Shown here piece by piece: positions 4,001-26,363 of a DNA stretch of 26,363 bases. The translations under genes were made by a program, and so were the position numbers. How positions within the stretch are numbered: position 1 is the stretch's first letter; each line of letters begins with the position of its first letter. Source of the stretch: Pigoraptor vietnamica. Taxonomy: Eukaryota; Opisthokonta; Filasterea. The stretch lies in NCBI GenBank assembly GCA_943704525.1, contig CALSCQ010002454.1, forward strand, positions 1 through 26,363, written 5' to 3'. The notes under the pieces were generated by a model, which saw only the letters and a list, made by a program, of their open reading frames with translations, did no database searches and was not told the origin of the DNA.

Positions 4001-4962
4001 AGATGGCGAATTCGAGGCTGCGCGGATGACGCCGTGCGCACATTGCGTCAGTGGCGTGTAGAATGGAAGGGCACGAGTAGCGTACAACCGCCGGGTACGT
4101 GCACACACGCAGATATTAAATTTCAAGGTCACGCACTCACGCACACACACACACACACACACATACACACTACATATACACACACACGCACACACACACA
4201 CACACCACACACATACACAGGCACACGCACACGCAAACATACACACACACACACACTACACACAAACGCACGCACGCACGCAAACACGCGTGCATTCAGA
4301 CGAGAGTCACTCACTTGAGCAAGCGCGCCATGCATTGGAGCTCAATTTCGCCGCCCCATCCACTGAGGCGGCGAATCTCAAACACGTAGTGGTCGAATGG
4401 GACGGCCATGAAGGGCTCGTAATCGTCGCGATTCCTCACGAGAAAGTCAACGCACGACTGCCGGAGCATGTCGTGTTGCGCCTGTGACAGACCGGGCAAC
4501 TGCGAGTAACGAGAATGGGTTTAATCCGACGGCGATTGTATGTAAACCTCACAGCAACACGAAAGCCGTAACGAGAATGGCGTGGGGAAGTGCTTCGGGT
4601 GCGCGCACGTGTGTTAACAGGACGAAGCACACGATAATCTGACCGATTTGCGGACACTGCCGATGAAGTCCCACCTGCGCCGCAATGGCCCTAAAAAGGC
4701 AGGAGCCGTCCTTCACAATCGGAATCCGCTTCAACCCCTTGCTTCCAAGGTACCTGCGCGCATTAGTGGCGGGCGTGAGTCACATGTAGCGATGCGCGAA
4801 CTGCAAAGCAGATTTATAACTAATAGCCCAAAGGACGCTCAGCGTTACAGCAACTCACGTGTCCATATCAGCGAGTGCGGGCTCGTGTTGCATGGCGGCG
4901 GACGAGGCCACGCCATACTGCGCCTCGAACGACGACTCGGCCATCTTTGGGTCAAGCGCCAT
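1077..4962 (-). CDS. OTU-domain deubiquitinase with prion-like tail and C-terminal PAM2 motif
   Basis: Eight exons, in transcript order: 4962-4859, 4753-4675, 4499-4315, 4017-3860, 3668-3545, 3400-3253, 3019-2900, 2780-1077; 873 codons plus stop, all phases close. The OTU fold spans about residues 36-190. Visible catalytic signature: D50-G-S-C53 (nucleophile Cys) and N-H158-Y-D (general base), with the family-typical segment W109-G-G-E-I-E-L-Q between them. A helical segment follows (L-L-Y-D-V-I-N), as in OTUD4/Otu-type enzymes; I do not see a clear Tudor domain. Residues beyond about 300 are acidic, then rich in Pro, Gly, Tyr, Gln and Ala with repeated G-R-G-x-Y-like units, hence disordered and prion-like. 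The last 18 residues hold L858-N-P-x-x-x-x-F865-x-P, a good PAM2 motif for the MLLE domain of poly(A)-binding protein. Inference: a ubiquitin protease acting on mRNPs. The first ATG in the open frame was taken as start; the short exon 1 is the least certain part. Confidence 0.87.
1080..1133 (-). other. PAM2 (PABP-binding) motif at the C-terminus of the OTU protein
   Basis: Codes the final 18 residues, K856 to R873. The known PAM2 core is L-N-x-x-A-x-x-F-x-P; here it reads L-N-P-A-S-A-A-F-N-P, with the Leu and Phe that insert into the MLLE pockets seven residues apart, the usual spacing. The Ala sits one residue off the most common register but a second Ala follows. Confidence 0.75.
4140..4264. 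repeat. Imperfect (CA)n tract in an intron of the OTU gene
   Basis: CA dinucleotides with TA/GC interruptions. On the sense (minus) strand this is a GT-rich tract starting about 50 bases inside the intron whose donor is at 4314. Confidence 0.95.

Positions 4963-6234: not shown

Positions 6235-6240
<6 letters not shown>

Positions 6241-6269
<29 letters not shown>
6241..6269. repeat. (CA)n microsatellite
   Basis: Pure CA repeat of about 29 bases in the divergent intergenic region, roughly 390 bases upstream of the ATG8-like start codon. Confidence 0.95.
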
Positions 6270-6657: not shown

Positions 6658-8018
6658 ATGCTCACTGCGGCAGCAAACGTTTTGAAGCGTCGTCTCAGCA
6701 TCGGCGGGGACGATGCGCGTGACGAGGCGGTGGAGGCGGCGCTCGACGAGTACCCGGGCATGATACCCATCATGGTGCTCTGCGGCGAAGGGGCAGCGGC
6801 CTCGTCCCGCTTCTCTTTCCACCGGCGGAAGAGCGTCGGAGACGAGGACGCGAGCACATCGCCACAGCCTACGCGCCTCTCGAACCGCAAGTTTTTGGTC
6901 CCCGCGGCGATGACCGTCAGCCAACTCGCCCTCGTCATTGGGCACAGGCTGCAACTGCCTGCCGGCAAGGTGTGTAACGAGAGTGCGCTGTTCCGCTGTA
7001 CCGCGCTGTACAACTCCCTTTTACTTTTTTCGTGCAGTAACACAAATGCTCATTGGTGCGTTGACGTCTGTTACAGGTGATAAAGCTCTCCCCCGCGCGC
7101 AAGGCGTCGGTGCATCTCTCGGACGGCACGGCCCTCAGCGACGTCTACATGCGATACGCAGACAACGACGGGTTCGTGTACATCACGTACCGAACCAACC
7201 CCGAGGTCCGCCGTCGCATGTCGGTCGACACGTCTTCGGCGTCCATTAGCGAGCGCATTCGCAACATGTCGCTGAGCAGCGCCAAGGAGGCCCTTCACAG
7301 CCCCCTCCCGTCGCCGCCACACCCGAAGGAACAGAAGAAGAGCGCCCCCGTCGTCGCAGGCAGGAGTACAACATCTGTCGGCGCTCCCTCGACGGATGAC
7401 ACGCGTCCCCGACGCAAGTCGCTCGAGGAAGCGCGCCGCGACGAGGCTCGACAAGTGGCGGAGGACTTGCGTAACAGCGCATGCCTCAAACCGACCGAGA
7501 CGCCGAGCGAGCCCGTGTCGCCGCTGTCGCTCACGCCCCCGGAGGACTCGCCGCTTTCTGACCTTATCGTGAGTGACACAATGCCGGGACAGTCGCCGCC
7601 GCGGTCGTTCCAGGTGGAAAGCGCAAGTGCACCGTCGCTCGTACCCAGCAGGGACGCTGCCGTGGCGCATGTCGTTCCCGCGGAAGGTACCCGCAGCTGC
7701 ACGCCCGCGGGCTTGCAGCGCGACCTCATGCGTCGGCGCGTGAACGAGCGTCTTTTTGATCTCCTCGCCGAGGACGAGCCGCAGTACATTCCGCCGTTCG
7801 AGTCGATCATCGCTGCTCTTGAGCGCGATCAAATCCACGCGACGCGGTCCGACGGGGCGATTGAGCGTCCATCGACCAAGCTGTCGGGCATTGCGGAGGG
7901 GTCGCTGCCGAAGAGTCTGTCCGTGCCGTCGCTAACCGCGTTTTCGGAGGCGGAAAACGCGTCGATTATGCGCCGCCGCATGTCGCTGCACAACAGTCTC
8001 CCCGTGCGAGTGGGCTAA
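6658..8018 (+). CDS. Divergent ATG8-like ubiquitin-fold protein with long disordered C-terminal tail
   Basis: Two exons, 6658-6969 and 7077-8018 (intron GT-AG, phase 0), 417 aa. Residues about 25-142 follow the ATG8/GABARAP pattern in order: Y32-P-G-M-I-P-I (compare Y-P-D-R-I-P-V), K78-F-L-V-P, T86-V-S-Q-L, I94-G-H-R-L-Q-L, and finally D133-N-D-G-F-V-Y-I-T-Y142 (compare D-E-D-G-F-L-Y-x-T-Y). An insert of roughly 23 residues follows the first strand. True ATG8 ends about eight residues after T-Y with the Gly that ATG4 exposes and ATG3 joins to phosphatidylethanolamine; here R143-T-N-P-E-V-R-R follows with no Gly, and about 275 Ser/Pro/Arg-rich residues come next. The tail has several R-R-x-S sites and two possible LIR motifs. 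Inference: keeps the LIR-binding fold but is not lipidated in the standard way. It could instead belong to the ATG12 branch; the Y-P-x-x-I-P start favours ATG8. The downstream neighbour (OTC) is convergent. Confidence 0.78.
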
Positions 8019-8214
8019 GGTTAACCCTCGCCCACACTGATATAAATACACTCACTAAGTTAAGAACAACTGCGCCTTCGAATGGAGACATCGTAGAATA
8101 TATCGCAACAAAAAATCGCTCGTTCTCTTACGCACAAAGGCACATCCGAGTTGAGGCGACACAGCACAGAGGTCCAGCCCACTTTACTCGCGTGTACGTT
8201 GTGCGCGCTCTGCT
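8019..8214. other. Short convergent intergenic region
   Basis: 196 bases between the stops of the ATG8-like gene (+) and OTC (-). A TATAAATA word lies at about 8041, possibly serving as an A-rich processing signal. Both 3' UTRs must be short or overlap. Confidence 0.5.
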
Positions 8215-8489
8215 TCAGCTGGGAGGGATGAAGCCAGGCGGCGGAGGAAGACGCATCACATACATCAGCACAGCCATCATGGTATAGAGGCGGTTCTCCG
8301 CCTCGTCGAAAACGGCCGAGCGATAGCCGTAGAAGACCTGCGTGCGATACATAAAGTGAGACGTCGAACGTCAGCTTGGGGCCATATGCGCACAACTCAT
8401 ACGCAACGCGCGAGTGGTGACAATTGAGTGCGTGTGCATACGAGTTACATGCAGCCAGGGCATGGGATGTTTGTGCACGTGCGGGTGCG

Positions 8490-8553
<64 letters not shown>

Positions 8554-10960
8554 GTGAGATACGCAAGACAAACGGCGGTCCTTCGCTCACATTGTCGTCG
8601 ACCTCCTCCTTCTTGCGCGGGAGGCAGTGGAGGAAGATCCAGTCGGGCGCGGCGTACGCAGACGCCTCCATAGTGACTTGGTACCCAGCAAAGGCCTTGA
8701 GGCGCGCGTCCTTCTCGCCCTCGTCACCCATGCTCACCTGCACGAAAGAGACATCAGAACGGCTCATTAAGAGACAGTCGTCCATCGACAAAGGAGAAAG
8801 AGTGGAACATATACGCCCAATTACATGAGACCGTTGGAACAACGCGTGCACTGACACTCAGAATACGATCCTTGGCGTCGCCAGCGCGAATAGACACACA
8901 GCGATAGCGCAATGATGCGTCCTCTCGCACGCACCCAAGTGTCCGTCGCAATCACACGCGCGTCCTTGTATGCTTCGGCGATGTTCCCGCCAATTTTGAT
9001 CGAAGTGCCGTGCTTTGCCGCCAATTTTTCGGCAATTTCGACCACCTCTTTCTTCGGCCGATAGTCGACGGGCGTGGCCACCTGCGCATGGCGGTGACAG
9101 TCAGTTCTTGTGTTGCAGACAGCTTGAGGTAGGCACACACACAGCAGCGTACAATGCGGGCATGTGAGGGGGGGATACGTCTCCGAAGGCACGCAAATAG
9201 CAATCGATGATGATGTGAGGCCCACAAATGCGCCATCGATGTGTGAGTGAGGCGAAGGAAAAGTTTTTTCAATGGTCTTCGAGAGCAAACGCGACGATAT
9301 ACTGGCCCCACGCGTCGCCCTATCTGGATAGAAAACGCGACCTCCTTTCCATACTTAAATGAGAAAAGGTAAGCTTACGCACCTGCAAGTCAATTCCAAG
9401 CTTCGGGGCGGTGACCAGGAAGCTGTTAAGAATGTTGTTTCCGTCGCCCACCCACGCGAGGCGGAGGCCTTCGAGGGACCCGCGACTATAGGCGCACGAG
9501 GGAACGGAGTAGACGAACGAAGGCATCAGCTGCCGCTATGTGATACTATCAAGCCGCGACCACAAGAAACGCCCACGGAGAGCCAGGGGCACGCACACAC
9601 TTGAATTCTCTCCCTAGCTTGCCTCAATATGTCTTGCTGGTGCCCGATACAGCAAACATCAACCACTCACGCACTAACAAACAACCAACGCGCAGTATAA
9701 ACAGATAATCGCGCGGTCCCCACCCAAACTTCTCCATGATGGTCATGTAGTCCGCGAGTGCCTGCAGCGGATGGTATGTGTCCGACAGTGCGTTGATCAC
9801 GGGCACTCGCGAGTGCTTCGCAAGCTCCTGCAATGTGCGCGACACGTGATGGGCGACACGTGAGCTCGAATTGTGCGTGCATGGTGTGAGAGAGATATCC
9901 CCAACGGTCCATCCCCCCATCAATTCAACTCGTATGTGTGCGTGTGTGAGCCATGGGCGCGTGAACATACTTCTCGTGCGCTTGTCTGATTGTACGTGAA
10001 TACATGAGGTGCGTGTAATGTGCACGTTGTGTATGTGGCGCTCTGCAGAGACGGTGCCAACGCACACACAAGCACACACCTCCACGTCGCTGTGCTGGTA
10101 CACACGGGCCAGAATGACGCTACTGAGGCGAGAGAGCACTTCGGACGTGTCTCGGAGTGACTCTGTGAAACGCAAAAATCAGTAACGCGCCGTAACAGTG
10201 AAGACCCCCCCCCCTTCCCCTCATCAGAGTGGTCGACACTTAAAGCAGCCATTGAGCATGTCGCCCTCACTTCTTCTCCCTCCCAAAGCTCACACTGATA
10301 CAGTCACCACGGATAGTCCCTCAGAAGGACTGGCTACGTTCCGATAAGCGATAAGCAGGCAGCTGAACGCACCGTTGACGCCCAGTTGTATGTCGTCCTT
10401 CCCCAGGAAAATCGGGTGGCCTCCGAGGTAGGACATGGCCGTCTCCGCACTCACACGCGTGCGCGTGCTGCGCTTCTGGAAGATCATCGAGAGCGTGCGG
10501 CCGAGGAGAGGTCGGTAAATGTCGCCGCGGCGGTACTTGTCCTTGAGGTAGAAAGCGAGTGAGAGAAGCGTCTTGATATCCTGCGGCGCTGTGTGTGCGC
10601 AAAAGACACGAAGTGTTCAGATGCGTGCGAACAAGTCCATGCCGGTCTAACAAGGCAACTAGGGCAAATTGGGCGTCCTTGGCGCTCGGAGACGCACAAC
10701 GAACACGCGTGTGGGGGGGGTGTGGGAGGCGGCAAATCAGCTCAAATTGTAGACATTGGGTGTGGGATGTCAAATCGGCTTAAATAACAGACGTGTACTT
10801 TCACATTGGGTGTGGGGGAGAGACAGAGAGAACGAAAGCCATCGGACTCACCCGTGTCCACGAGGCTGAGGAAGTGGAGCGGCTGCGCGGCGGTGCTCTG
10901 TGCGCGCGATGCCACTCGAAACACGGGCAACGCCGTGCGAAGCGCGCGAAGAGGGAGCAT
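8215..10960 (-). CDS. ARG3: Ornithine carbamoyltransferase, mitochondrial
   Basis: Transfers the carbamoyl group of carbamoyl phosphate to ornithine, giving citrulline. Eight exons in transcript order: 10960-10852, 10588-10373, 10162-10080, 9827-9724, 9485-9383, 9081-8935, 8737-8591, 8337-8215; 343 aa, the usual family length. The N-terminus ([11 protein letters not shown]) is Arg-rich without acids, a mitochondrial presequence; mature protein begins near H-F-L-S-L. Diagnostic sites: S77-T-R-T-R carbamoyl-phosphate loop, [15 protein letters not shown], the ornithine loop S-M-G, and H-C-L-P-R with the catalytic Cys. All seven introns are GT-AG. The gene is divergent from ARG5,6 with 514 bases between start codons. 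The yeast symbol is used (animal and human: OTC). Confidence 0.96.
8492..8552. repeat. (GT)n microsatellite in the last OTC intron
   Basis: About 30 GT units on the plus strand inside the intron between the last two OTC exons (8338-8590). On the sense strand of this gene it is (AC)n, unlike most intronic tracts in the window, which are GT in the sense direction. Confidence 0.95.
10735..10816. repeat. Diverged tandem duplication in OTC intron 1
   Basis: Two units: CAAATCAGCTCAAATT...ACATTGGGTGTGGG and CAAATCGGCTTAAAT...ACATTGGGTGTGGG, the second ending at about 10816. The 14-base end word is identical in both. No function is suggested. Confidence 0.6.
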
Positions 10961-11167
10961 TTTGGGAGTGTGCGCTCACTCGCTCCTTCCTTCTTCCGTT
11001 ACTCTCTCTTGTGGGCTCCCAACTGGCAAACAGGGCACCCGAGACAGACAAGTGTGTCCCACTATTGATAAGATTACACTAAAGTTGCTTCCTCAGACCA
11101 ACAGACTCATGTATACAGAGAAAGAGCACACACATAGAGGCAGCTCAACAAGCACAGCGCTCGCACG

Positions 11168-11202
<35 letters not shown>

Positions 11203-11474
11203 GCGAGCGCAGGGACGTTGCAGCACACTCTTGTGTGTGTGGGTGATGGCACTGATGTCCAGCGATCATCAGTGGTCACGTGATGTCCGCAATCGGCACG
11301 TGTTGACACCTCGCACGAACCGCACGCGCTCACACACAACGCACACGCACGCAGCTCTCCCGAAGGCAGTGGCTCGTTCGAGTACTTGAAGAACGTGCGT
11401 GTACACCGTTGTCCTCTTCCCGTTCGCTGTCGCTTTCTGAGTGGTTGTGTGTGGGACTTTCAATCGACAGCAGC
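10961..11474. promoter_or_regulatory. Bidirectional promoter region shared by OTC and ARG5,6
   Basis: 514 bases between two outward start codons must hold both promoters and both 5' leaders. Visible words: TGATAAG at 11066-11072, fitting the HGATAR site of GATA factors; a CA microsatellite at 11172-11200; palindromic TCACGTGA at 11276-11283 and a second CACGTG at about 11297, the class of E-box bound by bHLH factors such as Cbf1 or the TFEB/MITF group. No TATA box is obvious. CACGTG is frequent throughout this window, so the E-boxes alone are weak evidence. Confidence 0.5.
11172..11200. repeat. (CA)n microsatellite in the OTC/ARG5,6 promoter
   Basis: About 29 bases of pure CA, roughly midway between the two divergent start codons. 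Length changes here would alter promoter spacing for both genes. Confidence 0.95.
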
Positions 11475-11579
11475 ATGCTGCGCGTCGCGCGTGCTCGCCT
11501 TCCCCTGGCGACATGCGCCCGTCCGCGCTTGGCGATCAATGCCCGCGCTGCATACTCGGCCAGTGCGGGTCCGATTGAC

Positions 11580-11678
<99 letters not shown>

Positions 11679-13361
11679 GTGCATGCACGCCTCGTGTGAG
11701 GCTGTTGATGCACTACATGTTGTAATACATTGCTCGTGCAGGCGACACTCGCCCGCGTCGTCGGCGCTGTGACGAGCCGCCGCGACGTCGAGTATTTCAA
11801 CCACCTCTTCGGGCGCGATCACTCGGTGCGTGCATGCTAGTGCGTGTGTTTGTGTGTGCGTGTGCGTGTGCGTGTGCGTGAGCGTGTGCGTGCATGGTCA
11901 CCTATTTGTGTGCATGTGTGTGCGCGTGCGTGTATGTTTTCATGTGCAATTTGTGTATGCGTGTGCGTGCATGCTCCTAGTGCGCGTGTTTGTGTGTGCG
12001 CGTGCGTGTATGTTTTCCCGTGCAATTTTGTGTATGCGTGTGCGTGTATGTTTAGTGTGCTTCAGTGTGCGTGCACATGTGTTTCAGTGTGCGTGCGCGT
12101 GCGTGTGGACTCGCCAGTTGCGCTGGCTTGCATCCTGTCTCACGAGTCAATTGCACTGCAGTCCCGCCATGTCGCTGTCGTGAAGGTCGGCGGTGCAATT
12201 ATTGAGGAGGAACTCGACGTCCTCGCCGATTCGCTCCTCACCCTCTTGCGCGTGGGAATGGCACCTGTCGTCGTGCACGGCGGCGGTCCACAGGTGCGTA
12301 GCTCGCTGCCTATGTTTCATGAATGTTGGCGTACCAGAGGAGAGAGAGAGAGTGTGTGTGTGTGTGTGTGCGTGAATGTGGAATGCCATTTTTAAAAAAA
12401 AAAAAAAGTGCGTGCAAGTTTGCTGTTTCTGCAGCGCGACGTCTCACGCCGCTCTCTTCCCCATGCCGTGCAGCTGAACAAGGTGCTTGAGGCCGCGGGT
12501 ATTGAGCCAGAGTACATTGACGGAATGCGCGTCACAGACAAGGCCACGCTCGAAACCGCGCAGAAGGTGTGCGACGCGAACCCACCAGCACTCCGTGGTC
12601 AATAACTCCCTCCTGTTTCGCTTCCCCCTTCCACATCTCATTACTGGCGGTTCTGCGCATTTATGTTCACGTCTCGTCACTCTCTCACTCTCGCACATGA
12701 CGCACACTTTCAGCCGCCGTCAGTTTTCTGTGTGTGGTCGCACATTTATGTCTTCGTACAGTACGTTCCGCACACACACACACACGTGTCGATGCATTGG
12801 ATGCTCACGTCACATGTCGTCGTTTCACAGGTCTTCCAGGGTGAGAATGAGAAGCTCACCGCCGCACTCTGTGCTCGTGGCATCACAGCGGTGCCGTTCC
12901 TCGAGGGCGTCGTGCAGGCGAGTGCTCCGTCTCTCCCCTGCGCAGGTCTCCCCCTGCGCAACCTGCGCATGCCACGCATTCAGACGTACCTAATCCCACG
13001 TTCAACGCTCGCCATTCTTGGCATCCATCAGCCACTCACAATATCACGTGCGCTCACTCCATCTCTCCACGCATGCGCAGGCGAAGCTCCTGGACTTTAG
13101 CAAGTGGAAGTTCGTGGGCAAGCCGACGGGCGCCAAGGTCGATGGCGTGAACAAGATCGTCGCTTCCGGCGGAATTCCCGTCATTAGTAGCCTTGCGCAG
13201 GACGAGACGAGCGGCCAGACGCTCAACGTCAATGCCGACACGGCAGCGTGCGAGCTTGCGCGCGCCGTTCGTCCCCTCAAGACGGTGTTTTTGAACTCGA
13301 CGGGAGGCATTCTGCACGGCGTAACGAAGGAGCGCATTCCGGTCATCGACGTGGTAAGTGG

Positions 13362-13410
<49 letters not shown>

Positions 13411-16400
13411 ACTGCAGTTAAATTTGCCCATTCGATGAGCGTCCTTACACATAGACATGCACACGCATAAGCCTATCTATCGCCTCACTCTATCCTCCAT
13501 TCCCCCCTGCGCCACACAGGAGAACGAGTACGATGCTCTGCTGAAGCAGCCGTGGGTCAAGTACGGCACTCGCCTCAAGATTGTCGAAATCCGCGACCTC
13601 CTCTTCTCGCTGCCGAACCGCGCTGCGACGGTCACCATCACGTCGACCAAGCAGCTCCTCCCCGCCCTGCTCTACGGGAGCAGCGCCGACGGGACGAAGA
13701 TGAAGCGCGGCTACAAGTGCGTTGTGTCGGCTGTGTGTCTGCGTGCCTGTGTGTCGATGTGTGTGGTACTGTTTGTCATGTGTCCGTGTGTGTGGGAAAG
13801 CTCACCGTTGTCGCGCTGCAGGATTGGCCATCACGTGACCATGCAGAGCGTCAACCAGGCGCGCGCGGCGGCCCTTCTCGCTGCGGCGAACCCGAAGATG
13901 GGCGAGACGACGGCACGTGACCGCATCTCGCAGCTGGCGCAGTCGTCGAACGTGCACGGGGTGGGTGTCTGTGTGACAGTTCGAATAGAATCACGTGCGC
14001 ACAGCCAACGCACGCGCGTGTGCATGAATGTGCAAGCGCTGTGCTGGACACTCAGGGCTATTCTATAGCCCACGAGAGATGTCCAATGGCCTTCGTTGTT
14101 CTAAATACGGTGCGTTCACCTCCGTGCAGGTGTTTGCGGACGACGACTACAACTGCCTCGCCGTCGTATCCATTCCCGGCACAGGCCAGCGCCCCGTCCT
14201 CGAGGAGTTTGCCGTGTCGAGCGAGGCGCGCGTGTCGGGCTCCGAGGACCAGCTCTGGGACCGCGTGCGACAGACGTACGTCGACCTGCAGTGGTCTGTC
14301 CCCGCGACGGCGTCGGACGACACGATTGCGTGGAACCTGCAGCGTGCGAAGGGGAGCGTGCGGGACGAGGCCAAGGGCGCCATTCGCTTCTGGTACGAGA
14401 CGGCCGGGCAGACGGAGACGGGTCCCGCGAAGGCAGCTGCGCGCGCCCACGCGGCGTCGGGCACTGAGCCCGGCTCTGGGGTGACGTCCATTGCATCGAC
14501 GGCGGCGGCGGCGGCTGCTGCTGCGTCGTCGGCGACGAAGAACGAGCGCAAGTTTTCGACGTTCACTTCGTCTCTGTTTCACTCGCGCGGCTACGCCACG
14601 TCGGCCGCCGGTGGCAAGAAGTACGGCATCGGAATTGTGGGGGCGCGCGGTTACGTCGGAACGGAATTGATGAAGTTGATTGCGGGACACTCGTCGTTTG
14701 AGATTGTGTGCGTTGGGTCGAGGGCGAACGAGGGCGCGCGCATCGCGGACAATGTGCCGGGGCTTTCGTCGGACGTCCGGTGAGAGGAGATGGTCCAAGA
14801 GTGTGCATGCCTGAGTGAAGATGTGAATGGTGTGCTTTCTTTGTGTGTGAGTATTTGGATGGTCGCACCTCTCGTTAAGCTGACTCTGCGTGGAATACTT
14901 GCTGAATTCATCCTCCTTTCTTCGCTCTTTGCGCCAGGTATACGAACATCACCGCTGCCGACATTGAGAACTACAAGGGCGTCGATTGCTGGGTGCTCGC
15001 CCTCCCGAACGGTCTTGCGGCCCCTTATGTGGAGGCATGTGGCGCGCGCGTGTGTGTGTGCGTGTGCGTGTATGTGCGCGTGTGTGTGTGTGCGTGTGTG
15101 CGTGTGTGTGTGTGTGCGTGTGCGTGTGTGTGCTGCGTGCGCGCATATGCCCGCTCTTGTTGCTGTTGTGTTGTGTGTGTGCGCCCGTGTGCATGGACCG
15201 GTTTCATCGGTGTGTGGTGTGTTTACGCGTGTGTGTGTGTGATGACGTTTGTAAATGACGTCCTTTTCGTCGCAGGCCATCAAGAAGGCGGGCTCTGGCA
15301 AGCGCACAGTGACTGTCGACCTGTCAGGCGATCACCGGTGCGTCACGTGATTCGTCTCAGTGCACGCATACGCATAATTGTCCGCGCATTCCTTCACTTG
15401 TCCACGTAATGCGTTAGTTGTCGTGTTGCTGCGCTGTTCTCACCTTTTACTCCTCTTGCTTCGCCCCTCAGTTTCGACAACGACTGGCAGTACGGTCTCC
15501 CGGAGCGCTTCCGCAACGACATTCGCCGCGCGCGCTTCATCTCCAACCCCGGATGTTACGCGTCTGGCGCCCAGTTTGGGCTCCTCCCCGTGCTCGAGCA
15601 CATTGGCGGCGCGCCCTCCATCTTCGGCGTGTCGGGTTATAGCGGCGCAGGCACCACGCCCAGCCCCAAGAACGACCCCAAGTACCTCGCGGACAACCTG
15701 GTGCCCTACTCGCTCACAGGACACCTGCACGAGCGCGAAGTGTCGCGCCAGCTGGGCCGACAGGTGGGAGTCTTTGTTGGAGATGTTCGTGCGTGTGTAT
15801 GTCGTTCGTTTTCTCTCGCGTGGGCGTGTTGCGTATCTCGGTGCCAGAGTTCTCTACACATGCACTACACATGCGCTCACTCTTCTTATGTCTTTCGCAG
15901 GTCCACTTTATGCCGCACGTGGCGCCCTTCTTCCAGGGCATCTCCCTCACGATCTCAGTGCCCCTTGCGACGCGGTTGACCGCTCAGCAGGCCCTCGAAA
16001 AGTAGGTTTTCCGTGCGACCCTCAATTGTCATCCACATCGCGATAGTCAGTGATGCACTTTCGTGCACATGACACCAGCGATATCTAGCTTTCTCCTAAG
16101 CTCTAATGGCTGTGATTGTACATATCGACGACACTGTGCGGGCCTCCCCTCCTCCGTCTCACGCACGCACGTGTGCACGTTCACTTTGTACTGCTGTGAT
16201 TGCACACATTGCTCTCCCCCCCCCCCAACCACCACCACCACCTCCTCCTCCTCCTCCCCCACTACCCACCACGCACCCGCACACGCGCAGGTTCACATCG
16301 TACTACGCCTCGGAGCCCCTCATTCGCGTGCAGAAGGACATTCCCGTAGTCAAGGACATCTCCAGGAAGCATCACGTGACGATCGGTGGCTTTTCGGCGT

Positions 16401-16721
16401 CGGACGAGGGCCAGAACAGGCTTGTGCTCGTGTCGACCATCGACAACCTCCTCAAGGGCGCCGCGACGCAGGCGCTGCAGGTGGGGCTTCTGCTTTGTCG
16501 GTCTTGTCGAATTTGTTTTGCGTGGCCTTCTGTCAAATTTGAATAGAGTTTCTGTAGCTGTGATGGCGCATTTGTAGTGGTGTGATGTCGTGTATTCCTT
16601 TTTTTTCGCTTTTCATTCTTTCTCTCGCGTGTACTTACTCCCCGTGCGCCTTCAGAACATGAACCTCGCACTGGGCATCGATGAACTCGAGGGCATCAAG
16701 CAGTTTGTGACGCCGAAATGA
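11475..16721 (+). CDS. ARG5,6: ARG5,6: acetylglutamate kinase / N-acetyl-gamma-glutamyl-phosphate reductase fusion, mitochondrial
   Basis: Second and third steps of arginine synthesis on one polyprotein. Fifteen exons: 11475-11582, 11742-11825, 12162-12293, 12474-12566, 12831-12917, 13081-13353, 13520-13716, 13822-13960, 14130-14779, 14938-15034, 15276-15337, 15472-15763, 15901-16001, 16291-16480, 16656-16721; 856 aa (yeast protein is about 860). Order: Arg-rich presequence (1-30); amino-acid kinase domain with V71-K72-V-G-G-A and V-V-V-H-G-G-G-P-Q108; the fungal-type extra NAT-like (DUF619) domain, about 340-465; a linker with an Ala run; an internal presequence-like stretch (511-533, S/T/F/R-rich); and reductase from K534 with G-I-V-G-A-R-G-Y-V-G and catalytic C669 in S-N-P-G-C-Y. 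In yeast such a protein is cut in mitochondria between the two enzymes. Introns after exons 5 and 10 use GC donors. First ATG in frame chosen. Confidence 0.97.
11583..11673. repeat. (GT)n microsatellite forming the splice donor of ARG5,6 intron 1
   Basis: About 45 GT units. Exon 1 ends A-G-G at 11582 and the intron begins with the first GT of the tract, so the donor itself is microsatellite sequence. Expansion or contraction leaves the junction intact. Confidence 0.95.
11916..12050. repeat. 76-base tandem duplication in ARG5,6 intron 2
   Basis: GT-rich units start at 11916 and 11992; each contains GTGCGTGTATGTTTT followed by GTGCAATTT(T)GTGTATGCG. The intron runs from 11826 to 12161 and is GT-rich throughout its first 280 bases. 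Confidence 0.75.
12918..13080 (+). other. GC-AG intron (intron 5 of ARG5,6)
   Basis: The donor is CAG|GCGAGT. The flanking exons join as G-V-V-Q|A-K-L-L-D in phase 0, which aligns without gaps to the yeast kinase segment. No GT within reach gives phase 0, so a GC donor is required for an intact kinase. Confidence 0.85.
13363..13407. repeat. (GT)n microsatellite just inside ARG5,6 intron 6
   Basis: The donor GTAAGT is at 13354 and the pure GT tract starts nine bases later. Confidence 0.95.
15035..15275 (+). other. GC-AG intron (intron 10 of ARG5,6), GT-rich
   Basis: The donor GAG|GCATGT joins P-Y-V-E|A-I-K-K, matching the reductase family with no insertion. A GT donor 15 bases downstream, at the start of a GT-rich tract (about 15050-15133), would also be in frame but would insert five residues (A-C-G-A-R), so the GC choice is favoured, not proven. 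Confidence 0.65.
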
Positions 16722-17093
16722 GAGTGCGGCGACAATTGCGGACAATACAATTGTGCAGTCTCACTGTCTCGCTCTCGATGTTGAGGTCAAAGGCGAGGCG
16801 GTACGGAGCGCGAGCAGATGAAACCCACTGCCGCGAGACAAGAACAACACTGTTGTGGCTGGACCCGATTGCATGCCATTTTTGTGTGTGGATTTCAATT
16901 TCTGCCGACCGCACACAGTTCAACAGTCCAGCGTGAGCGCCCTTTAGAGGATTGGGTTTATCGCCCACACATTCTACTTTGCGGGTTAGTCGCCGTTCCC
17001 ATGAGCGCAAAGTTCAAATAGCTTGCTGCAAAAACGACCGCCGACGACATTTACTGGGCGTCGCCAGCCAACAAAGGAACTGCGCAACATGGC
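16722..17093. other. Convergent intergenic region between ARG5,6 and ARG8
   Basis: 372 bases holding the two 3' ends. No open frame or repeat of note. A short hairpin-capable word ACAATTG...CAATTGT occurs at about 16732-16755. Confidence 0.5.
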
Positions 17094-20000
17094 TCAGTTC
17101 GAGCTCTCCTTCTTCTTCTTCTCCACGGCGGCGTCGAGGCTCTCGCCAATCACCTTGACGGCGGCATCGATGTGCGCGCGCTCCACGATAAGGGGCGGGA
17201 GAAGGCGCAGCACCTGCTTGCCGCTCGTAATGACAATAACACCCCTGGAAGCAAACAAGCGGAAATGAGTGGAAATTAAATGTGCCAAAGGCGTCACAGC
17301 GAGTGCATACACGAACACTGTGCATGTTGCAAATAAAAGTAAGTCAAGACAGCCACGGGCAAGCCCGTGCCCCCAGCATTAACAGTAACACGTAACGGCA
17401 TACACTTGTGAGGCCATTTCAACACACACGATGGCCATCGCACACTTTTGTTTGACAGTACACGCACCTGTCGAAGCACGGCGCAGTGACGTCCGCCGCG
17501 GCGACGCCCGGGAACAGCTCGACGCCCACCATCAGCCCAAAGCCACGCACTTCCTTGATGTGGTCGGGGCGGCGCTTCTGCAGATCGACGAGACGATCGC
17601 GAAGGTACTCGCCCGAATCGCGCACCTGCGCGTGAGATAAGAGGGCAGCGATGGTTTATAGATGAACAGCCAACACAGCACGACCACAAAACTCAAACCG
17701 ACTTTCGACGTGCAACGCCTCGCTGCTTACAGAACGAGATATGCAAACAACGAGGTAATGCGCCTCGAAAGAACCGAGCTGAATGACGGGTGCGCGCATT
17801 GCAATCAACATCACCCCCATCACAACACACAACTGTACACATATGCATCTGAAAGTATTGCGCTTGCCTTCTGGAGGAATGCGGGGTGCGAAATCTTGCC
17901 GAGGACGACCTGCGCTGCACGGCACACAAGAGGGCCACCGGAGAAGGTGGAACCGTGCTCGCCCGCCTTCATCACGTCGCTGACGGCCTGAGAATGAGGA
18001 CGAATGGAAGGGGTGTGAGTGGGTGTGCGGTAGGTTTTGAGTATGAGGACGAATGGAAGGTGTGTGAGTGTGCGGTAGGTTGTGAGTATGAGGACGAATG
18101 GAAAGGGTCGTGTGCGGTAGGTTTTGAAGGCGAACGAAAGAGGTACGAGTGTCGGCTCCATACGCAATCGTGCAATTTTGAATATCAGACACAGATGCCG
18201 TAAAAGACGCGCATGCACGAACAAACCACTGACAATAACGAGTGCGCGTGTCCTTCACATTCACATTGTGCCCTCCGACTCACGAATCGCGCACACCGCA
18301 CACACAGAAGAGGTTTACGCACCTGCGTCATCAGAATAGCGCCAATGGGGAGCCCGCCCGCGAGTGGCTTTGCAAGCGTCATGACGTCGGGCTTCACGTT
18401 GAACGAGGGGTGCTCGTGCGCCCACAAGTACCCGGTGCGGCCGAGTCCACACTGCAGCACGCGTGAGTGCAGATCGAGCGTGAGTTATGTACCACAGGAA
18501 TTTTCTGACGTTTGACGAGTGACATGCAACGTCTTCCCGCCTAACAAGAGACACGGCGCGAACCGCGCGCACGCCGCACCTGCACTTCGTCAAAAACGAG
18601 AATGGCGCCGTTCTCCGTGCACTTGGCGCGAAGCTTCTGCAGGAATTCCTTCTTCGCGGGGTTGATGCCGCCCTCGCCCTGGATGGGCTCCACAAACACG
18701 CCGCACACGTTCTTTCCCACGACGTCCAGCGCGGAGAGGTCGTTGTACGTGGCCTGCACGATGCCGGGGACATGCGGCGCGAAGGGGTTCTACGCGTACA
18801 GTGTGGGTGAGTGACGACACGGACGATAAATACAGTGTAACGTGTTAAGGGCAGGATTAATGACCGTTCACGAACGGCAGCGCGCATTCGGGATTCGTAT
18901 GAATTCTGCCTTCTCCACGGGTCAATTTCACGTCTTGCGCGGACACGAAAACCGGCGCAACTCATCCCCACTTCACTCTGCAGTCGCAGAGGGCATTGTC
19001 CCACCTGGTACGTGGGGTTGTGGGTGGCTGCCAGCGCACCCATCGTGCGCCCGTGGAAACCGGAGGAAAAGCTCACAATCTGGGATTTAACAGCAAACAA
19101 TGTGCTTAGCAAGTCATACCGGCGCAACGGGCCATACGCACGCATCATGCACGTGTCCAACACTGGCAGGGAACATAGACTAACAATCACAGTGGGCATA
19201 ATGAGCCTACAGATATGTATAGTATTGAGTCAGTGTGGGTGTGTGGTGTGTGCGTGTGCGCGTCTAATAAGTGTGCTCACCACGTGCTTTGCGCCGCTGG
19301 GGTCCTTCGTGAGGCCCCACTTGCGGCAGAATTTGATAGCGCCCTCATTCGCCTCGGTGCCGCTGTTGGAGAAGAACACCTGCGATGCGGACGCAGGGAT
19401 GTCGGATCAGCTTGATTCATGGACGCGTGTCCATCGACTTCACGATATGGACGCAGAGACAATGGGACTGAGTTGTTGGAACCCACCATTAAATACCACA
19501 AGCAAGAAAATAAAAAAATAAAAAAGGAAGGGTGAAGGAGCACGCACCTTGTCGGCAAAGGAAAGTTCCACGAGCGACTTCGCGAGCTCGAGCGAGGGGA
19601 TCGAGTGGAAGAGGTTGCTCACGTGACACAGGGTGCGTGCCTGCTCGGCGACGGCCGCGGCCCAGTCGGGGTCCGAGTGGCCCAGCGCATTCACAGCAAT
19701 GCCCGACGAGAAATCGAGATACTCCTGCGTGGAACATGCACGCAGACACGAGGGAGCGACGTAAGACGCTGGACGGAACTGTGTTCGCTTGAGGGTCGGA
19801 TATGAATGAGTGCACACGGACGGTGGACGTAAGACACATCTGGACGAAACTGTGTGCGCTTGAGGGTCGGCGTATGGTAGAGGGCATACGAAGTGCGTTT
19901 GCACAGACATGACTCGTGCCTCTCCATTGAACGTGCCTTTCCCTCCGTGTCGTAGACATAGACACCCTTGCCGCGCACAAAGGCGAGATTTGGGCGGACG

Positions 20001-20346
20001 TATGTGGGCACAATGTACTTGTTGTAGGCCTCAGCGGCAGAAGCACCCGTCCATGACGACTGCTGACGCAGCGGCTGCGTGGTCAAATGAAGGTAAGGGA
20101 TGGTGTACAACACACGCACGGAGAAGACAATGTATTGTACGAAAATAGAGTTGATGAGAGAATGCAGTTAGTTCTTTTGATACACTTCACAAGAGATGCA
20201 CATTCGAGTCGCTTACCGCGGCGTGTGCAGAACGGACCGCAGTCGCGGCGCGGAAGGCGCTTGCAACTGCCCAAGGAATTGCGCCATTAGCCAGAGAGGA
20301 CGAGTGACAGCTCAAGTGACAGCAACCCACCTACGCGACGGAACAT
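17094..20346 (-). CDS. ARG8: Acetylornithine aminotransferase, mitochondrial
   Basis: PLP enzyme converting N-acetylglutamate semialdehyde to N-acetylornithine. Eleven exons in transcript order: 20346-20331, 20266-20217, 20074-19937, 19724-19548, 19379-19281, 19079-19005, 18789-18580, 18451-18323, 17987-17868, 17625-17468, 17244-17094; 440 aa (yeast Arg8 about 423). Exons 1-2 give [13 protein letters not shown], a clear mitochondrial presequence, joined across a 64-base intron with a CTAAT branch-like word; an ATG inside that intron (20288) was rejected because it ends in the wrong phase. Class-III features: [35 protein letters not shown], Schiff-base K283 in T-L-A-K-P-L-A-G-G, and G-S-T-F-S-G-G-P. 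Two introns (donors at 19936 and 17867) are GC-AG. Convergent with ARG5,6; divergent from the GATA gene. Confidence 0.95.
17626..17867 (-). other. GC-AG intron of ARG8 with an in-frame alternative GT donor
   Basis: The donor AAG|GCAAGC joins F-L-Q-K|V-R-D-S-G, which matches the family length. A GT donor (TAT|GTGTAC) 27 bases further in would also keep frame and add nine residues (A-S-A-I-L-S-D-A-Y). Either donor, or both, may be used; the family alignment favours GC. Confidence 0.65.
17995..18127. repeat. Minisatellite, three units of about 45 bases, in an ARG8 intron
   Basis: Units begin ATGAGGACGAATGGAA at 17995, 18043 and 18088 and end in TGTGCGGTAGGTT. The third is shortened. The array begins seven bases upstream (sense strand) of the acceptor for the exon at 17987. 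Confidence 0.92.
19725..19936 (-). other. GC-AG intron of ARG8 (after exon 3)
   Basis: The donor AAG|GCACGT joins E-G-K|E-Y-L-D-F in phase 0. No nearby GT gives the right phase. The intron contains a tandem duplication at 19759-19870. Confidence 0.83.
19759..19870. repeat. 68-base-period tandem duplication in an ARG8 intron
   Basis: Copies start at 19759 and 19827, each running ACGTAAGAC...CTGGACG...AACTGTGT-CGCTTGAGGGTCGG with a few substitutions and a three-base indel. Confidence 0.85.

Positions 20347-21086: not shown

Positions 21087-21129
<43 letters not shown>
21087..21129. repeat. (GT)n microsatellite
   Basis: About 21 GT units in the divergent region, immediately after a TTATCG word. 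Confidence 0.95.
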
Positions 21130-21882: not shown

Positions 21883-23223
21883 ATGGAGTCGTGCGACGTC
21901 TTTTCGCTCGACCTTGAGGCCGCTGGCCTGGACATTCTCGGCGCGTGCGACGGGTGAGTTGCGCTGTGCACGCTTGTTGAGAGCAGCTTCAGGTACATGG
22001 ACATGAGACTGGTATGACCTGTGCGCCTTGGACTTTTGACTCACATGTCCGTTGCTCTCGACCTTCAGCTTTGCGCTGGACGATTTTATCGTCCCGAGCG
22101 AGCTCGACATGCTCTTCACGGGCGTCGACGTCGACGCTCTTTCGGAGGACCTGTCGTCGTCGCCGCTCTCGCCCTCGTCGAGCATCTCTGCCGACGTGAG
22201 CGGCAGCAACAGCGTGCCTGGATCGCCCCCTTCGTCCCACGGCGCCTCGCCGGTGCCTTCCGAGTGGGATGGCGAGTGCATCATGCCCAAGGAGGTGCGT
22301 TGAGCCCGTTGTTGTTCAAGCGTCGTGGTGGAATTCTCATTGCTCGCAGTCGCGTGCTGATCGGTGTCTTGTTCTTTGTTTTCCCCCATAGGGTGAGGCG
22401 CGCGTGTGCGGCAACTGCGCGACAACGTCGACGCCCCTCTGGCGAAAGACTGCGGACGGGACTATCCTGTGCAACGCGTGCGGCCTCTATCACAAGGCCT
22501 ACAAGGTGCACCGCCCGCAGACGACGCGTAAGGCGCGCCCGGTCAAGTCGGAGTCGTCGCAGGAGCGTACCGCGCCTGCCTCGTCCGGACAGTCGTGCGC
22601 CAACTGCGCGACGACGGTGACGACGCTGTGGCGCCGTGACGCGCGTGGACGCCTGTGCTGCAATGCGTGCGGGCTCTACTCGAAGATGCACCACAAGTGA
22701 GTTTGGTTTTGCCTCCCATGTTTGTCTCCCACATTAGGCACTCTGATGTCTTATGCCGTTCCAACACTATGTATTGTTTTTTAATCGCGCACTGTGTTGC
22801 CGCCGCAGGGACCGCCCGCTGAAGCTCAAGGGCCAGATTCGCCCGCGCAGCCGCAAGGTTGGCGGCGACGTCGTGAACAAGTCGATGGCGCCGTCGGCCG
22901 CGCCGAAGTCGCCCTCGCAGCCGCTGATGTCCCTCATGGCGTCGTCGATGCCGGCGCTTTTCGGGCTTCCAATGGAGACGTCCGTCTCGGACATGCAGGC
23001 TGCGAGTGCCCAGCTGGCCGCTGCCGCTGCCGCCGCCGCCGCGCTCTCGGTCCCCATTCCGCAGCTCGCGATGCCTCTCGGCTACCCCCTCGTGGGCGCG
23101 CCGTTTGTCGTGCCGTCGACGCCCGAGGAGCGCATTGCCGCGCAGCTGCGCATGCGCCTGCTCGAGTCGCAGCTCATTGCGCTGAGCTCTGTGATTGCGG
23201 CGGGCATGGTGCCCTCGAAGTAG
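21883..23223 (+). CDS. Two-zinc-finger GATA transcription factor
   Basis: Four exons: 21883-21953, 22069-22294, 22392-22696, 22809-23223; 338 aa. The first 99 residues are acidic and Ser/Pro-rich (a likely activation region). Finger 1 is C105-x2-C108-x17-C126-x2-C129 with T-P-L-W-R-K; finger 2 is C168-x2-C171-x17-C189-x2-C192 with T-T-L-W-R-R and C-N-A-C-G-L-Y-S-K-M-H, followed by D-R-P-L-K-L-K and a basic tail to about residue 220 (DNA binding to (A/T)GATA(A/G)). The 38-residue spacing between the fingers and their sequences recall animal GATA1-6 more than fungal AreA (one finger) or SreA (Cys-rich linker). The C-terminus is Ala/Met/Leu-rich with an Ala run. The first in-frame ATG was used; the frame is open for 200 bases upstream but lacks an ATG. 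Confidence 0.93.

Positions 23224-25972: not shown

Positions 25973-26363
<391 letters not shown>

Follow-up and report, generated by a model that had tools for sequence, protein, structure and literature searches.

The window analysed here is a stretch of 26,363 nucleotides from the 32.5-Mb draft genome of Pigoraptor vietnamica. On its forward strand, positions 6658-8018 carry a gene for an ATG8-like protein, which translation and predicted splicing resolve into two exons and a product of 417 residues. Exon 1 (6658-6969) encodes residues 1-104, which by alignment span the N-terminal helix region, beta1, an insertion loop, beta2 and alpha3. Exon 2 (7077-8018) encodes residues 105-417 and the stop codon, and covers beta3, alpha4 and beta4 followed by a long tail. 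The predicted intron (6970-7076) is 107 nt long, in phase 0 and of the GT-AG type (GTGTGT...TTACAG). The gene limits given by the first-pass annotation were correct, with the addition that the intron is needed to keep the frame; an unspliced reading stops after 140 amino acids. The canonical Atg8 gene of the same genome allows a similar reading, with a short intron that is also in phase 0 and has a GTG-type donor but is located elsewhere in the domain. A second acceptor-like CAG was noticed within the intron at 7035-7037, after a pyrimidine run. In this phase it leads immediately to a TAA stop, so that alternative splicing could turn the ATG8-like gene off.

Codon usage was evaluated with a training set of 25 open reading frames (ORFs) of at least 450 amino acids from the same genome, overlapping opposite-strand ORFs being left in. 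In exon 1 the reading frame of the model scored best (0.206 vs. 0.043 in the next frame), and the exon gave a six-frame ATG8 match in a profile search of the genome (E = 4.8e-4). The frame was also favoured for exon 2 overall and, within the tail, in five of six segments of 135 nt.

Arginine-biosynthesis genes adjoin one another downstream, at about 8063-20119, a clustering that is unusual for a eukaryote. They comprise an ornithine carbamoyltransferase gene (about 8063-10175, reverse strand), an ARG5,6-like kinase/NAT/reductase gene (about 12-16.5 kb, forward strand) and an acetylornithine-aminotransferase-like gene (about 18.3-20.1 kb, reverse strand) whose Pfam match lies below its cut-off. 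The window also contains a tandem GATA zinc finger pair at 22404-22700 (PF00320, E = 2.9e-26), and (CA/TG)n runs with ten or more perfect units at 416-546, 4142-4163, 6240-6269, 8492-8551, 11172-11201, 11583-11672, 13363-13406, 21087-21128 and 26185-26290.

The ATG8-like ubiquitin-fold domain (6730-7190, residues 25-142) is split by the intron and was delimited by Pfam, PDB-chain matches and alignment. Pfam ATG8 (PF02991) matched residues 72-145 with E = 1.2e-11 and 45.1 bits, against a curated cut-off of 27. When PDB chains were searched with phmmer, 102 distinct sequences were found at E up to 1 (best E = 5.8e-8), and the best 60 of the 102 were ATG8, LC3, GABARAP/GATE-16 or LGG-2 chains, or chimeras with them. 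The original assignment to ATG8, made from the landmarks Y-P-x-x-I-P and D-G-F-x-Y-x-T-Y, is thus borne out; both are present, as YPGMIP and DGFVYITY, and alignment to canonical ATG8 showed that KFLVP is kept as well. The protein retains 14 of the 21 columns invariant across ten canonical ATG8 rows, nine of them known family members (the LC3C sequence among them verified) and the tenth taken from this genome. Identity with LC3B amounts to 38 of 120 aligned positions. The alignment also revealed that about 22 extra residues separate beta1 from beta2 and that another 2 to 3 are inserted after beta3. It follows from the homology that the domain should adopt a ubiquitin-like fold with two N-terminal helices. 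An origin from ATG12 was rejected, there being no match to APG12 (PF04110) at E up to 1 in the Pfam search and a separate Atg12 locus elsewhere in the genome (C206).

The position of the protein within the family was examined with an 11-row tree. It formed a very long branch of 5.63 changes per column between the LC3 and the Atg8/GABARAP rows, at a weakly supported position (55/90, 73/46), and its highest identity over the tree columns was 32%, to Arabidopsis ATG8f. The tree does not place it in either subfamily. It neither favours nor disfavours an LC3-type ancestry. The residue by which the Atg8/GABARAP type is recognised (K/R47, according to the part of PMC7615515 available) is present here as Arg77.

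The LIR-docking site was compared with that of LC3B, in which HP1 and HP2 comprise 13 residues according to the available portion of PMC7615515. Nine of them are identical (4 of 7 in HP1 and 5 of 6 in HP2), more than expected from the 38 of 120 identities overall (hypergeometric P = 0.004). K51 of LC3B, the lysine needed for LIR binding, is kept as K78. The gatekeeper lysine (LC3B K49, yeast K46) is replaced by N76, the HP1 residues corresponding to LC3B D19 and I23 are both alanine, and yeast R28 is methionine; because of the two alanines and the methionine, the protein could bind LIRs weakly or not at all. On the residue match, the docking site nevertheless appears largely kept. The UDS face, in contrast, is lost in the alignment, the strand AIFIFV having become VIKLSP with Lys107 in place of yeast Atg8 Phe77.

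Tetrapeptides resembling LIR cores were also sought within the protein itself. The tail contains FDLL at residue 331 and FESI at residue 345, the latter where a predicted helix begins (7755-7808, forward strand). These are hypothetical elements at a chance-level count, the whole protein having three LIR-like cores vs. 2.7 expected and no xLIR motif, and an autoinhibitory device made of tail LIR motifs was rejected on that evidence.

Downstream of the domain the usual conjugation site is missing. Depending on which of two alignments is used, the lipidated glycine of canonical ATG8 aligns with Arg149 or Arg151, and Arg149-Arg150-Arg151 (7209-7217) replaces the scissile and lipidated residue. After Gly136 the next glycine is Gly199, so that residues 137-198 contain none and the ATG4/lipidation site is absent, as the first reading of the sequence had held. 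Since this glycine is missing, lipidation is unlikely, and so is acceptance of the protein by ATG7 and ATG3 and its attachment to PE. The first-pass annotation had also raised the possibility of a 3' exon that restores a glycine end. A pattern scan of 7077-10500 in the three forward frames gave six matches, none of them like the canonical TY-x6-G end; one was the end of the protein itself. Its last residue is Gly417 (8013-8015), as in mature ubiquitin-like proteins. This glycine lies 275 residues beyond the domain and is therefore taken as chance, an unusual conjugation through it being conceivable.

The tail (7191-8015, residues 143-417) is 275 residues long, rich in Ser, Pro and Arg, has a net charge of +1 and is mostly disordered by prediction. 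Short helices were predicted near residues 161-166, 221-237, 314-335, 345-362 and 395-406. An AlphaFold2 model of exon 2 alone, computed from the single sequence without an alignment and to be taken as weak evidence, had a mean pLDDT of 48.2, with values below 50 in 205 of 313 residues, and showed nothing but short helices in the tail. The length and the mostly disordered character proposed for the tail at first are thus in agreement with these largely low-confidence predictions. No Pfam family matched residues 148-417 at E up to 0.01.

At least some parts of the conjugation systems are encoded elsewhere in the genome. A separate canonical Atg8, which the first-pass annotation had proposed to look for, was found on another contig (G000:C583, E = 7.9e-40) and ends in TYSGENTFGDC, and Atg4 matches lie on two contigs (C681 and C741). 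Because canonical Atg8, Atg4 and Atg12 are also present, the ATG8-like protein is best regarded as an extra, divergent paralog. When the genome was searched with it, four matches were obtained: two were the exons of the gene itself, one was the canonical Atg8 (E = 2.3e-5) and one was a tail match on contig C1323. The last was considered as a possible paralog and taken as chance, having E = 0.06 and two internal stops, and no second copy of the tailed kind was found in the draft genome.

Relatives were also sought in large protein and contig collections, which are a poor sample of eukaryotes. The full-length protein gave no match at E up to 0.01 among the 7994 scored candidates sharing most words with it, residues 20-160 gave none at E up to 1 among 1088 candidates, and a 136-residue domain piece gave none at E up to 0.01 among 48. 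In a database of 5.8 billion sequences canonical ATG8s, at about 35 bits, would themselves come near the limits, so that only close relatives are excluded, and for that database. With exon 2 as the query, 10 stretches in viral contigs and 408 in bacterial and archaeal genomes fitted the pattern and none was confirmed, neither collection being a fair survey of eukaryotes.

The strongest functional clue is probably a set of five R-R-x-S-hydrophobic motifs of the PKA type, which the first-pass annotation had missed. RRLSI (Ser14, 6688-6702) precedes helix alpha2, RRKSV (Ser59, 6823-6837) lies in the beta1-beta2 insertion, RRMSV (Ser153, 7212-7226) is directly at the lost glycine site, RRKSL (Ser219, 7410-7424) is in the tail and RRMSL (Ser407, 7974-7988) is near the C terminus. 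A weaker basophilic motif, RKASV (Ser115, 7098-7112), was found near the beta3-alpha4 loop. Two controls were employed. Shuffling of the protein gave a mean of 0.25 motifs, and none of 20000 shuffles reached five. The second control used the longest non-overlapping stop-to-stop ORFs of at least 250 amino acids from 20 genome stretches and the window, some of which are perhaps not genes. One of the 78 ORFs was dropped for its composition and two for their position (exon 2 and the motif-free ORF at 8063-8857). The remaining 75 contained 14 motifs in 32054 amino acids, or 0.18 per 417 residues (65 had none, 7 one, 2 two and 1 three, the maximum). The corresponding Poisson P is 1.4e-6; the RRxS motif was chosen after the sequence had been viewed and no correction was made for that choice, so the P values overstate the case.

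Ser14 is aligned with LC3A S12, LC3B T12 and LC3C S18. An N-terminal PKA site is common to LC3 proteins and absent from GABARAPs, and phosphorylation of the LC3C site affects the LIR-binding region in vitro, as described in the available text of PMC6775092. Furthermore, when PKA phosphorylates Ser12 of rat LC3, less LC3 is recruited to autophagosomes (Cherra et al. 2010, cited in an excerpt of PMC9806848). The column is poorly conserved; GABARAPL2 has a serine without the arginines and the LC3-type LGG-2 a proline. The genome contains an ORF for a PKA regulatory subunit (C630) with the inhibitor site RRQSV, matching RIIbeta at E = 5.3e-70 and RIbeta at 3.4e-69. An RIIa motif and cNMP domains occur in the same stretch, and a second, weaker RIIa motif was found on contig C108. 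In all, 39 cyclic-nucleotide-binding domain matches were counted in the genome (loci L038-L043 and others), suggesting rich cyclic-nucleotide signalling.

The reading that we favour, with a probability of roughly 0.45, is that the protein is a soluble LIR binder which is not lipidated, serves as an adaptor or decoy and is controlled by PKA-type phosphorylation, the binding and the phosphorylation both being predicted from sequence. It was weighed against a soluble ATG8-like scaffold whose sites serve other kinases such as PKD or AMPK/Snf1, or phospho-dependent 14-3-3 binding, which would void the nutrient and cAMP logic. At four of the five sites position -5 is hydrophobic, a feature that also suits PKD- or AMPK/Snf1-type kinases, so that kinases of these kinds have to be considered, and ten Rxx[ST] sites are present, though this number does not exceed chance (7.1 expected). 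However, at all five sites the serine is preceded by Arg at -3 and -2 and followed at +1 by a hydrophobic residue, which is the textbook PKA consensus. Their +4 residues are D, E, S, A and S, whereas AMPK favours large hydrophobics there, and the 14-3-3 motif RxxSxP is absent from the protein (0 found, 0.45 expected). Use by other kinases or by 14-3-3 proteins is regarded as unlikely.

The possibility was also considered that the fold has been re-used outside LIR binding and autophagy, for example in a cytoskeletal or membrane-traffic adaptor of which the tail is the functional part. The very long branch in the tree would be consistent with such a change of role, as would the altered UDS residues, the two lost HP1 residues and the beta1-beta2 insertion. 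Yet the pocket residues are retained more than the rest of the domain. Moreover, a typical microtubule binder has a basic tail, and with its nearly neutral charge the tail does not favour that function. Lipidation-independent roles of Atg8 do exist, as with Atg8-Hfl1 (PMC6279349, from the text available), and taken together re-use of the fold outside autophagy seems somewhat unlikely. A duplicate that is decaying or has been neofunctionalised recently, with a function that is slight or absent and a tail that is mere read-through, would account for the failure to find relatives in collections that sample eukaryotes poorly and for the single copy in the draft genome, but it is hard to reconcile with a 417-codon frame intact across the intron, coding-like codon usage in most of the tail, kinase motifs in both domain and tail and the kept pocket, and is very improbable. 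Finally, the gene model, which is predicted from sequence and whose intron has the additional CAG acceptor, might be an artefact in which another 3' exon or splicing pattern gives an ordinary ATG8, or two genes have been joined. That acceptor leads to a TAA, however, the end of the domain and the tail lie in a single uninterrupted exon, and the scan downstream found no canonical-like end, which makes an artefact hardly conceivable.

If the protein is a soluble LIR-binding adaptor or decoy under PKA-type control, its action could be pictured as follows. As a divergent ATG8 paralog it would stay soluble and non-lipidated; with the glycine replaced by an Arg-Arg-Arg-Met-Ser segment, ATG4 processing and lipidation would not take place at the usual site. 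Because most of the LIR-docking pocket is kept, autophagy receptors or adaptors could be bound in the cytosol, where they would be scaffolded or competed away from membrane-bound Atg8. Which state prevails would depend on a basophilic kinase, PKA being the most probable candidate. The kinase would act on up to five sites, one ahead of helix alpha2, one in the loop joining beta1 and beta2, one where the glycine used to be and the others in the tail. When cAMP is high, signalling nutrients, LIR binding would change, and starvation would undo the change. The soluble LIR-binding scaffold, decoy or regulator proposed at first fits the retained pocket residues, while the LIR binding that it presupposes is still a prediction from them.

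Comparison with known systems places the protein at some distance from each. With canonical ATG8, LC3 and GABARAP proteins (PF02991), including the Atg8 of the same genome, it has in common the homologous domain, KFLVP, DGFVYITY and the nine pocket residues, and it differs from them in the absent post-domain glycine, the changed UDS, the beta1-beta2 insertion, the 275-residue tail and the five PKA-type sites. The N-terminal PKA-type site is a likeness to LC3A/B/C, on alignment alone, whereas LC3 proteins keep the glycine and the present protein has Arg77. At the yeast vacuole Atg8 acts with Hfl1 independently of lipidation, and an ATG8 fold active without lipid attachment is also what is proposed here; in yeast, according to the same available text (PMC6279349), canonical Atg8 does both jobs, whereas in the present genome the protein without the usual lipidation site is a paralog distinct from the canonical one. 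Apicomplexan ATG12, another ubiquitin-like autophagy protein without its conjugation glycine, has lost the C-terminal residue and may act non-covalently, but it belongs to a different family and no long tail appears in the available parts of its description (PMC10104450, PMC3416769). Trypanosomatid ATG8A/B/C are likewise divergent paralogs alongside a canonical ATG8, and the available description mentions no such tail in them (PMC10104450). Among the matches listed in searches of the open-access literature, as far as their text was available, there was no ATG8 with a long tail or without the glycine, Apicomplexan ATG12 being the nearest case, and as far as those listings go the first-pass statement that no described family has this architecture is not contradicted.

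As judged from its sequence, the protein is an ATG8 homologue that fails the defining feature of a lipidated modifier, and it looks like an ATG8 that has retained one of its protein-binding faces while losing the other along with its conjugation end. A bolder interpretation, which we regard as doubtful, is that it represents an undescribed lineage-specific class of ATG8 that abandoned conjugation and now serves as a soluble switch under cAMP control, with PKA phosphorylating several sites around the pocket and thereby toggling its hold on receptors. ATG8 proteins are usually understood through their attachment to lipid, and separating LIR binding from lipidation normally takes engineered mutants; a natural ATG8 in which the glycine is gone but the pocket persists would allow the function of soluble ATG8 to be tested without such engineering. 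The PKA-type sites, if they are used, would provide a direct and testable link between cAMP and selective autophagy. If the proposal is true, one protein would be both phospho-sensor and LIR binder, tying nutrient signalling to the choice of cargo.
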